64,000 nucleotides of DNA from positions 124,001 to 188,000 of the forward strand of contig CANFOS010000004.1 of the NCBI GenBank assembly GCA_947448735.1, read 5' to 3'. Source of the stretch: Comamonadaceae bacterium. GTDB taxonomy: Bacteria; Pseudomonadota; Gammaproteobacteria; Burkholderiales; Burkholderiaceae_C. The position numbers and the translations under genes are program-made. Positions 9,064 to 12,319 of this stretch are shown piece by piece. Within the stretch, counting starts at the first letter, position 1, and every line of letters begins with the position of its first letter. The notes below the pieces were generated by a model. It did no database searches, was not told where the DNA came from, and was given only the letters and a program-made list of their open reading frames with translations.

Positions 9064-10590
9064 TCACATCACGGCGCCGACTTGCCACGGAACGAACTCG
9101 TTTTGCCCATAGCCGTGCTTTTCGCTTTTGCTCAGCTTTCCTGATGCCGTGGCCAGCACCATCTCAAAAATACGCTGGCCCATTTCTGCCACCGTGGCGC
9201 CGCCGTCAATGATCTCGCCGCAGTTGATATCCATGTCTTCTTCTTGTTTTTTCCACAAAGCGGTGTTGGTGGCCAGCTTCAGCGAGGGCGATGGCGCGCA
9301 GCCATAGGCAGAGCCCCGGCCGGTGGTAAAACAAATCAGGTTGGCGCCGCCCGCCACCTGACCGGTGGCACTGACCGGGTCATAGCCTGGCGTGTCCATG
9401 TACACAAAGCCATGCGCTTTGACCGGCTCGGCGTACTCACACACCGCCTGCAAATTGCTGGTGCCGCCTTTTGCCACGGCGCCCAGTGATTTTTCTAAGA
9501 TCGTCGTCAAGCCGCCCGCTTTGTTGCCGGGTGACGGGTTGTTGTTCATTTCACCGCCATTGATGTCGGTGTAGTGCTCCCACCACTTGATGCGTGCGAT
9601 GAGCTTGCTGGCAATCTCGGGGCGCACTGCCCGGCGGGTCAGCAAATGCTCGGCCCCATAAATCTCTGGGGTCTCGCTCAAGATCGCCGTGCCGCCATGC
9701 GCCACCAGCAAGTCGACCGCTGCGCCCAGCGCCGGGTTGGCGCTGATGCCCGAGTAGCCGTCAGAGCCGCCGCACTGCAGGCCAATGGTGATGTGCGCCG
9801 CGCTGCACGGCTCGCGCTGCACAGCGTTGGCGCGCGGCAGCATGTCCTTGATCAGCGCAATGCCTTTGGCCACGGTTTGGGCGGTGCCGCCTGTGTCTTG
9901 GATGCTGAAGACGCGCAGGTTCTCGCCTTCGGTCAAGCTGCCGTGCGCCAGCCAGGCGTTGATCTGGTTGGACTCGCAACCGAGCCCCACCACCAGCACG
10001 CCCGCAAAGTTGGGGTGGGTGGCGTAACCCGTCAGGGTGCGTTGCAAAATCTGCATGCCCAGACCGTCGGTGTCCATGCCGCAGCCGGTGCCGTGCGTCA
10101 GGGCCACCACGCCGTCGACGTTGGGGAAGTCTTTGAGTGCTGATGGGTTGTTGTGGCGTGAAAAGTGGTCGGCAATTGCCCTTGCAGCCGTGGCCGAGCA
10201 ATTGACGCTCGACAAAATACCGATGTAGTTGCGGGTGGCCACCCGGCCATCGGCCCGTTTGATGCCCATGAAGCTGGCTTCTAACTTGGCCGACTCAGGT
10301 TTGACATCTGCACCCACAGCGTAGTCGCGTGCAAAGTCGCCTTTGTTGTCACCCATATCCAGGTTATGGGTGTGCACGTGCTCACCTGCTGCAATTGGCT
10401 TGCTGGCAAAGCCGATGATCTGGTTGTAGCGGCGGACGGCATCGCCTGTGGTGAGCGTCTTGGTGGCTACTTTATGGCCTGGGGGAATCAGGCCTTTGGT
10501 GGTGAAGTCTTCTATTTTTGTGCCGCTGATGAGTTGTGTCCGTGCTATGACGACGTCGTCTGCAGCATGGAGTCTTATAAAAGGTGTCAT
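9064..10590 (-). CDS. UxaA family hydrolase / altronate-galactarate-type dehydratase (SAF + UxaA)
   Basis: GYVRADGRVATRNYIGIL-like motif, HGTGCGMD, GLQCGGSDGYSGISANPALG, NNNPSPGNKAGGLTTILEKSLG. Confidence 0.9.
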   Translation of the reverse strand: MTPFIRLHAADDVVIARTQLISGTKIEDFTTKGLIPPGHKVATKTLTTGDAVRRYNQIIGFASKPIAAGEHVHTHNLDMGDNKGDFARDYAVGADVKPESAKLEASFMGIKRADGRVATRNYIGILSSVNCSATAARAIADHFSRHNNPSALKDFPNVDGVVALTHGTGCGMDTDGLGMQILQRTLTGYATHPNFAGVLVVGLGCESNQINAWLAHGSLTEGENLRVFSIQDTGGTAQTVAKGIALIKDMLPRANAVQREPCSAAHITIGLQCGGSDGYSGISANPALGAAVDLLVAHGGTAILSETPEIYGAEHLLTRRAVRPEIASKLIARIKWWEHYTDINGGEMNNNPSPGNKAGGLTTILEKSLGAVAKGGTSNLQAVCEYAEPVKAHGFVYMDTPGYDPVSATGQVAGGANLICFTTGRGSAYGCAPSPSLKLATNTALWKKQEEDMDINCGEIIDGGATVAEMGQRIFEMVLATASGKLSKSEKHGYGQNEFVPWQVGAVM

Positions 10591-10635
10591 GGTGTTGAGT
10601 TTTTAAATTCAGGTTGCAGTTGGGTTCTATTGCTG

Positions 10636-10738
10636 GCCTGTGAGGCTGGGGTGAGTAGCTCCGCGAATGTCCCCCGCGCGGCCTAGGGCCGCAGCTCTTC
10701 CTTGATGTCGCTGCGCTACCCACCCCAGCCTCACAGGC
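10636..10738 (-). repeat. Structured element B1: 24-nt self-complementary arms around a 55-nt core
   Basis: gcctgtgaggctggggtgagtagc (10636-10659) pairs with gctacccaccccagcctcacaggc (10715-10738), 23/24; core 84% identical to B2. Confidence 0.9.
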
Positions 10739-10790
10739 TTGTTAACAGCGCATGTTTTTTGGGGCCGACGAACACCCACACTGCTCACAA

Positions 10791-10893
10791 GATCATGCCG
10801 ATGCGGTGCTTGGCGCAGCGGCATCAAGGAGGAGCTGTCGCCATAGGCGACGCGGGGGACAGCCGCGGAGCCAAGCACCGCGTCGGCATGATC
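10791..10893 (+). repeat. Structured element B2: same 55-nt core, opposite orientation, different 24-nt arms
   Basis: gatcatgccgatgcggtgcttggc (10791-10814) pairs with gccaagcaccgcgtcggcatgatc (10870-10893), 23/24. Confidence 0.9.
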
Positions 10894-10924: not shown

Positions 10925-12319
10925 CTAGTAAAACATCTTGGGCAACCAAAGCACCAACTTAGGAAAGTAAGTAATGATCACAAGCGATCCCAGCAGCGGA
11001 ACCAGCCAGGGCAATATCGCAACCGTCGTTCGCTCAACAGACAGTTTCGCCACCCGAGCCAGCACAAACAGCACCATCCCCATCGGCGGGTGCAGCAGGC
11101 CAATCATGAGGTTCAGCACCATCACCAGCCCAAAGTGAACCAGGTCAATGCCCAGCTTCTGGCAAATTGGCACCAGGATAGGCACCAGAATCGTGATGGC
11201 AGCGGTCGTCTCTAAAAAGCAGCCCACAAACAGCATCAGCAAATTGGCCAGCAGCAAAAACACATAAGGGTTCTGGGTAAAGCCCAGCACCCATTCGCTG
11301 ATGGCTGCCGTCACGCCAGTGGCCGTTAACATCCAGCCAAAAATACTCGCTGCAGCCACGATCAACAACACGGTGGCGGTCGTCTCCACCGTGTCCAGAC
11401 AGACTTTCACAAACATCTTGAAGTTCAATGTTTGGTACCAGGCAAAGCCCAGCACCATGGCCCACAAGCAGGCAGCGATGGCGCCTTCAGTCGGGGTAAA
11501 AATGCCGGTGGTCATGCCGCCAATCAGCAGCACCGGTGTCATGATGGGCAGGGCGGCTTGAAACTTGAACAGCTTGTCCATCGCAAACAGCACGATCAAA
11601 CCGCCAAACACCGTGACTTGCGCAGGCAGCCCGCCTTTGACAATCAGCAGCCACAGCGTGACTGGCCAAACGATCACCACCAGTGTTTCTATGAGCGCCT
11701 TGATAACGCGGGGCCATTCAAACTTGACATCTGCGCCCCAGCCGTTTTTATGAGCAAAGTAGGCCACTGTCACCATCATCAAAATAGCCATCAGCACGCC
11801 CGGCAAAATGCCCGCCAAAAACAGTGAACCAACACTGACGTTGGCCATCATGCCGTAGATCACAAACGGCAAACTCGGCGGAATGATGGGGCCCAGCGTG
11901 GCTGATGCAGCGGTGACGCCGACCGCAAACTCGGTGCTGTAGCCATGGTCTTTCATGGCCTTGATTTCAATCGTACCCAGCCCGGCTGCGTCGGCAATGG
12001 CCGTGCCGCTCATGCCTGCAAATATCACCGAGCCCACCACATTCACATGGCCCAGGCCGCCCTTCATCCAGCCGACGAGTGCCAAAGCGTAGTTGTAAAT
12101 GCGGTTGGTGATGCCGGCGTTGTTCATCAAATTGCCAGCCAGAATGAAAAACGGCACAGCGAGCAGCGGAAAGCTGTCGATGCCCGACACCATGCGGTGA
12201 ATCACCACAAAAGCCGGTAGCCCGCCCGTCCACCAGATGTAGATCAGCGCCGAGCCCGCCATGGCAATGGCGACCGGGATGCCGCCACTCATCAAGATCA
12301 AAAAGATAATTTTCAGCAT
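10925..12319 (-). CDS. dctM: TRAP transporter large permease (DctM-like)
   Basis: GIPVAIAMAGSALIYIWW, AGNLMNNAGITNRIYNYALALVGWMKGGLGHVNVVGSVIFAGMSGTAIADAAGLG. Confidence 0.94.
   Translation of the reverse strand: MLKIIFLILMSGGIPVAIAMAGSALIYIWWTGGLPAFVVIHRMVSGIDSFPLLAVPFFILAGNLMNNAGITNRIYNYALALVGWMKGGLGHVNVVGSVIFAGMSGTAIADAAGLGTIEIKAMKDHGYSTEFAVGVTAASATLGPIIPPSLPFVIYGMMANVSVGSLFLAGILPGVLMAILMMVTVAYFAHKNGWGADVKFEWPRVIKALIETLVVIVWPVTLWLLIVKGGLPAQVTVFGGLIVLFAMDKLFKFQAALPIMTPVLLIGGMTTGIFTPTEGAIAACLWAMVLGFAWYQTLNFKMFVKVCLDTVETTATVLLIVAAASIFGWMLTATGVTAAISEWVLGFTQNPYVFLLLANLLMLFVGCFLETTAAITILVPILVPICQKLGIDLVHFGLVMVLNLMIGLLHPPMGMVLFVLARVAKLSVERTTVAILPWLVPLLGSLVIITYFPKLVLWLPKMFY

Follow-up and report, generated by a model that had tools for sequence, protein, structure and literature searches.

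Short palindromic repeats abound in bacteria, and which strand of them is read, in which form, and for what reason the host keeps them are rarely known. Among the closest described systems are the REP sequences, REPINs and BIMEs, i.e., multicopy short palindromes which often occur as inverted pairs, have one strand recognised, carry bulges or internal loops in their stems, and are mostly intergenic (PMC8266576, PMC3116915, PMC2817692). The Rickettsia palindromic element (RPE) is a stem-loop of ~100 nt that is found between genes and also in frame in conserved protein genes (PMC2229807, reviewing Ogata 2000, 2002). The BRE repeat, reported by Hot et al. (2011), is a GC-rich repeat of ~90 bp from Bordetella and Comamonadaceae, mostly intergenic with some copies in coding sequences (PMC3110155). 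It counts 29 copies in Polaromonas sp. JS666 and 4 in P. naphthalenivorans CJ2, and forms direct tandem arrays with few nucleotides between the copies (PMC3110155).

The twin hairpins and their family

In the 64,000-nt stretch of DNA from a Comamonadaceae genome that was analysed here (the window), two hairpins of 103 nt each stand back to back within an operon, their 5' ends facing a 52-bp spacer (10739..10790) which is unconserved, with a mean pairwise identity of 0.46 across nine orthologous loci. Upstream lies dctM, encoding the large permease of a TRAP transporter (10925..12319, minus strand; TIGR00786, 417 bits, over the cut-off; PF06808), and downstream lies a gene of the D-galactarate/altronate dehydratase family (9064..10590, minus strand; PF20629, 5e-103; PF04295, 3e-46; PF08666), which the first-pass annotation of this DNA had called uxaA-like and whose match to TIGR03248 is below the cut-off. 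The left twin, hairpin A (10636..10738), has the minus strand as its core-sense strand, i.e., it is sense to the operon, and is composed on that strand of a 24-nt 5' arm (10715..10738), a 55-nt core (10660..10714) and a 24-nt 3' arm that pairs with the 5' arm (10636..10659). The right twin, hairpin B (10791..10893), has the plus strand as its core-sense strand, antisense to the operon; on that strand, its 24-nt 5' arm (10791..10814) and 24-nt 3' arm (10870..10893) enclose a 55-nt core (10815..10869). Core A, which belongs to the part conserved in the family alignment, contains a GCAG/CGGA internal-loop motif, TCAAGGAAGAGC, an inner hairpin and GGGGGACA, and core B contains the GCAG/CGGA motif, TCAAGGAGGAGC, an inner hairpin and GGGGGACA.

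Hairpins A and B match the covariance model of the family, R1, with 83.7 bits (E 2.3e-17) and 92.0 bits (E 2.6e-19), respectively. Fold z-scores of the hairpins run from -8.3 to -9.3 (A, -8.3; B, -8.9), 0/200 shuffles fold as well, and folding is more stable for the core-sense strand than for the complementary one (-73/-74 vs -69/-70 kcal/mol). On re-measurement, the coordinates and the 24/55/24-nt architecture given in the first-pass annotation proved exact, as did the 46/55 identity of the two cores once one of them is reverse-complemented. Within each hairpin the arms form 23/24 Watson-Crick pairs, and the sole exception is a G.T in the core-sense strand, as had been described (pair 19, G.T, in copy A; pair 12, T.G, in copy B). 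The view that the arms of the two copies are unrelated needs correction: they agree at only 13/24 and 12/24 positions, but a left and a right arm type can both be recognised from genome to genome.

Together, the two hairpins make up a single copy of a large, interspersed family of small mobile DNA elements, widespread and apparently unnamed, with the core TCAAGGAGGAGC-(hairpin)-GGGGGACA. With the core as blastn query, copies turned up in 16/87 congeneric genomes, mostly as back-to-back pairs ~150 bp apart. A pattern scan (TCAAGGAGGAGC-N7-22-GGGGGACA) against 85,488 species genomes gave at least 120 matches, and those listed are almost all from Comamonadaceae (Rhodoferax, Variovorax, Polaromonas, Hydrogenophaga, Ramlibacter, Pseudorhodoferax and others), so that the core, for which such a search had been proposed, is a recurrent element in these bacteria. 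R1 matches 118/251 genomes sampled from the GTDB family, in 66/115 genera there; across 399 Pseudomonadota genomes its matches are confined to this family and to four genomes of a single further family, which belongs to the same class and a different order. A genuine twin was also observed in the gammaproteobacterium Luteimonas kalidii (L053:6407 and 6567), and this twin and the four genomes together make horizontal transfer likely. Rfam 15 returned no family match (best E 0.08, all far below gathering scores), and no published account of the family was found in the open-access literature searched, where the encoded peptide yielded no paper and the core sequence only unrelated ones, which does not prove absence elsewhere.

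Genomes with the element carry several copies, with a maximum of 32 in one genome of 3.9 Mb that is a single contig; as 10-16 candidates per genome were scored in the large surveys, most of the counts there are minimum values. Besides the twin in the dctM-dehydratase spacer, the genome of the window holds two others, directly 3' of pccB (C35) and on C47, whose arms are unlike those at the dctM-dehydratase locus. Across the family, hairpin length is 86-108 nt, outer arms and flanks are variable, and many copies sit between co-directional genes or near gene ends. The complementarity of the arms recurs in other copies, in 164/172 pattern matches with enough flank. Close neighbour pairs are back to back (divergent) in 49/53 cases and direct in one; single hairpins exist as well, and the twin is thus not an obligatory unit. 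A subfamily with an insertion of ~18 nt (TGGACTTGGGGTTTTGCC) in the 5' side of one hairpin was observed at L005/L009, L085, L103 and L122, and includes the twin 3' of pccB in the genome of the window.

Fold and strand under selection

Covariation was assessed in 60 copies that had been aligned with MAFFT independently of any structure; arm pairing was required for their selection, a filter passed by 164/172 usable matches. In this alignment, both partners have changed in 33/35 base pairs, pairing holds in 94.3% of cells, and the covariation score is 0.775, vs 0.197 with shuffled and at most 0.126 with slid partners. When the arms are instead taken at offsets fixed by the core type alone, 83.8% of positions are Watson-Crick vs 42.0% with shuffled partners (maximum 44.6%), which, together with the complementary arms of 164/172 family members, excludes a chance origin of the pairing. 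The covariance model that the first-pass annotation had recommended (R1) was built accordingly, and covariation was found in core and arms alike. The stretches TCAAGGAGGAG and GGGGGACA are unpaired and (nearly) invariant. The internal motif GNAG/CGNA keeps apparent G.A and A.G oppositions, and the pair between them varies (C-G, U-G, G-C, U-A, A-U); we infer from this pattern that the G.A pairs may adopt a sheared-type geometry. Base 2 of GNAG is itself a paired position and covaries with column 84.

The mismatches in the arms show which strand is under selection. Counted in the core-sense strand, best-fit arms have 256 G.T vs 17 A.C mismatches (156:5 in twins and 100:12 in singles), and at fixed offsets the split is 355:45, compared with a shuffled ratio of 1.5. 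Where the flanking genes, taken from simple ORF calls, are in tandem, the G.T:A.C split is 38:2 in copies antisense to them and 47:5 in sense copies. In situ, among the nine orthologues of the dctM-dehydratase twin, it is 33:1 for hairpin B and 13:4 for hairpin A. Because hairpins A and B share a locus but occupy its two different strands, a replication- or transcription-strand mutation bias is excluded, and because the bias is also found in hairpin B, which is antisense to the operon, the selected fold is that of an element-defined single strand rather than of the operon mRNA. Covariation in core and arms and the G.T preference in the core-sense strand bear out the earlier suggestion of selection on a folded single strand. 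These substitutions indicate that selection acts on the folded core strand itself, and that the strand is set by the element, not by transcription or replication.

Insertion, movement and upkeep

The twin is present in the dctM-dehydratase spacer of nine congeners, including the genome of the window, whereas about eighteen other congeners have only 3-39 nt between these genes, showing that the twin is an insertion; in one further congener the gap is 122 nt. Two more congeners have a different, BRE-like repeat in this spacer, which suggests an insertion-tolerant or preferred spot. The empty sites contain neither arm, so arms and core arrive together. In the congener G039, the stretch 10632..10887 of the twin, roughly the mobile unit, recurs as a block (84% over 256 nt) elsewhere in the genome, with unrelated flanks. 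The empty sites, the multiple copies per genome and this second location support the mobility that the first-pass annotation had considered. Its particular version of it, a mobile core that inverts target sequence, is contradicted, since the proposed comparison of arms with local sequence found neither arm at the empty sites and the arm sequences form lineages, recurring in varied form across loci and species; this leaves the other explanation put forward for the matched arms, i.e., strong compensatory evolution. The outer ends TTCAGGGCG...CGCCCTGAA are common to twins from different loci of a Variovorax-type genome and are present too in Variovorax copies of the pattern scan.

Once inserted, the twin is kept. 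Among the nine orthologues, mean identity is 0.84-0.92 in the cores and 0.78-0.85 in the arms, compared with 0.46 in the spacer, 0.31-0.50 in the outer flanks and 0.60 at third codon positions of the two genes; the hairpins, being above this last yardstick, are kept well beyond neutral expectation. Compensatory changes, e.g., T-A to C-G and A-T to G-C, are seen at the orthologous locus. Conversion from sister copies is unlikely, as the genome of the window has just two other twins, with different arms. A second position lies just 3' of pccB, where six contigs have a twin; their pccB genes share 91-100% identity with the one in the genome of the window, and two of the six are titled Hydrogenophaga. 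A purely mobile element alone is insufficient to explain conservation in place.

Single hairpins also occur in frame within genes, encoding ..AQVKEEPAKRAGDTEQ.., in Mpl, PutA, MutL, MutS, an AraC-type regulator, DsbA-like proteins and a transporter/hybrid-kinase fusion. The Mpl copy, of ~33 codons, is found in three species and absent from most congeners, and homologues of both PutA and Mpl without the insert exist. In putA, a sense copy stands in L084, and the copy in L094 is at a different site with its core reversed. In the kinase gene, two copies (L064:3660-3749 and L102:2787-2876) share the same site and recognisably similar arms with opposite core orientation, the ORF being kept in both, which suggests that the core was flipped in place through its own inverted repeats; the alternative is two independent insertions. 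The copies in mismatch-repair genes were observed in different species (mutL, L043:7691-7780; mutS, L072:267-356).

A mobilising enzyme was sought among linked genes. Y1-transposase genes (PF01797) are present in 24/24 genomes tested, with or without elements, the genome of the window having one, and no R1 match was found within ~1.5 kb of the Y1 loci that were scanned, each with a neighbourhood of roughly 3 kb. A RAYT/Y1 enzyme is therefore not supported as the mobiliser, and the linked RAYT-like gene anticipated in the first-pass annotation is not borne out. Genes near 120 loci include no recurrent transposase and only host genes, by which a recurrent neighbouring gene was rejected as well, and widely spaced element pairs (L095, L110, G102:C14) were dismissed as an autonomous form of the element because host genes lie between them. 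The Y1 gene in the genome of the window (L160:1059-1901) is itself flanked by perfect 24-bp inverted repeats, TAATAGGGGTCAGATTCCAATTAA, which are unrelated to the twin.

Explanations and comparison with known systems

The explanation that we favour, with a probability of roughly 0.6, is that the twin is a non-autonomous, two-ended mobile element of a REPIN- or MITE-like kind, moved in trans by a putative factor that reads a single-stranded DNA hairpin, and kept by selection. Its two long hairpins, with a conserved core and fast-evolving complementary arms, would move jointly as a unit of ~250-260 bp. The putative factor would recognise the core-sense strand as folded single-stranded DNA; it would probably read the internal loop, which is purine-rich (TCAAGGAGGAG / GGGGGACA), and require the arms only as a stem. 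Its mobilisation of the element in trans would resemble the action of TnpA-REP on REP strands. The insertion between dctM and the dehydratase gene would date to an ancestor of a presumed Polaromonas clade, and this copy would since have been kept because purifying selection maintains the folding of each hairpin as a single strand, in which case the putative factor or a host process would still use the twin in place. A more specific proposal is put forward tentatively, i.e., that this is strand-specific DNA-hairpin recognition outside the Y1/RAYT system, in which a putative Comamonadaceae factor may read a purine-rich loop framed by sheared-type G.A pairs, with targets selected at fixed positions across genera (dctM-dehydratase and 3' of pccB). 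If true, hairpin recognition would be a domesticated host system, beyond a selfish repeat.

It is unlikely that the hairpins act instead as structured RNA in transcripts, whether by affecting the stability, processing or termination of mRNA or as a small RNA, with cis-regulation at the dctM-dehydratase junction as one possible role. Covariation with G.U preferred over A.C is a classic sign of RNA selection, many copies lie near gene ends or between co-directional genes, and the twin sits within an operon. However, the bias tracks the orientation of the element and not transcription (38:2 in antisense copies; 33:1 for hairpin B in situ), and no Rfam family matches. Single-stranded DNA is the simpler reading, as RNA would need separate outward transcription from the spacer, where the divergent transcripts must start and which is unconserved (0.46). 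The case against RNA as the selected strand is an indirect one. The regulatory RNA proposed in the first-pass annotation, uncoupling dctM from the downstream gene, is disfavoured in particular by copy B, which is antisense to the mRNA and carries the bias in its own core strand (33:1). A REP/REPIN in the strict sense, belonging to the RAYT (TnpA-REP) system, is rather improbable. REPINs and BIMEs likewise have hairpins in inverted pairs, recognition of one strand and a spread between genes (PMC3116915, PMC8266576), each hairpin of the family contains a GNAG motif, and the genome of the window has its one Y1-transposase gene, but the units are ~100 nt and not 20-50, a conserved tetranucleotide 5' of the palindrome is lacking and base 2 of GNAG covaries with column 84, and Y1 genes neither track nor adjoin the elements.

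There is only a slight chance that the repeats are purely selfish or neutral and that their apparent conservation results from concerted evolution by gene conversion or re-insertion. This is a multi-copy family with recent look-alike copies in some genomes, yet no donor is at hand, since two of the three twins in the genome of the window have arms unlike those at the dctM-dehydratase locus, and the orthologous arms change stepwise with compensatory pairs. That a mobile core produced the arms by duplicating target DNA in inverted form, as the wide difference between the arms of the two copies might indicate, is highly improbable, since neither arm is present at empty sites and arms from different loci and species belong to the same lineages.

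With BRE, the family shares a GC-rich composition, a mostly intergenic position with some coding copies, and a home in Comamonadaceae. However, the family forms divergent twins, with one direct pair of 53, whereas BRE forms direct tandem arrays. Identity with BRE was rejected, as a separate 86-bp repeat family fits the BRE description, with 62 matches in G006 (taken as JS666) and 41 in the genome of the window, whereas R1 has 0 matches in G006 and in G005 (taken as CJ2). This BRE-like repeat was observed in the genome of the window (G000), e.g., at C4:237657-237742, and in the congeners G005 and G006; two congeners carry a BRE-like repeat in the dctM-dehydratase spacer (L285 in G010 and L303 in G032), and the 86-bp repeat also stands in frame in mpl, at the exact point where other species carry an element of the twin-hairpin family.

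The likeness to RPE, i.e., palindromes in frame inside conserved protein genes, is one of form, and no homology is claimed; the hosts are unrelated, and the family is GC-rich with its own conserved core, has back-to-back pairs and strand-specific covariation, and has coding copies also with the core reversed. It adds a betaproteobacterial case of in-frame palindromes in conserved proteins, including mutS and mutL. Like the MITEs (Correia/NEMIS, ERIC, RUP), the elements are small and non-autonomous, and the Variovorax-type twin, with its outer terminal inverted repeats TTCAGGGCG...CGCCCTGAA, looks like a MITE, although these repeats, clear in the Variovorax-type twins, are not evident in the window's own lineage, and the unit differs from a MITE in holding two internal structured hairpins.

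The REP/REPIN/BIME likeness lies in the inverted pairs (49/53 divergent) and the core-strand bias, which is evolutionary evidence, not binding. We note that the family differs from these in its ~100-nt length, its conserved apical core with variable covarying arms, and the lack of a conserved tetranucleotide 5' of the palindrome, of an adjoining Y1 gene and of a correlation with Y1. By analogy it would work most like a REPIN, yet it fails two defining REP features, the 5' tetranucleotide with a 20-50-nt palindrome and the Y1 gene. For this family, sequence comparison alone answers part of the questions of strand, form and upkeep: a single-strand fold is selected, the element determines which strand that is, and inserted copies stay under selection. 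Its 103-nt targets with a sharp sequence core make the upkeep of such repeats testable and offer a handle on why bacteria keep hairpins. Thus, the covarying interspersed hairpin family is real and widespread, new as a family while its kind, small mobile palindromes, is known; what is unusual beside the known systems is the element-defined selection on a single strand, its persistence in place once a copy has inserted, and the occurrence of the elements both between genes and within them.
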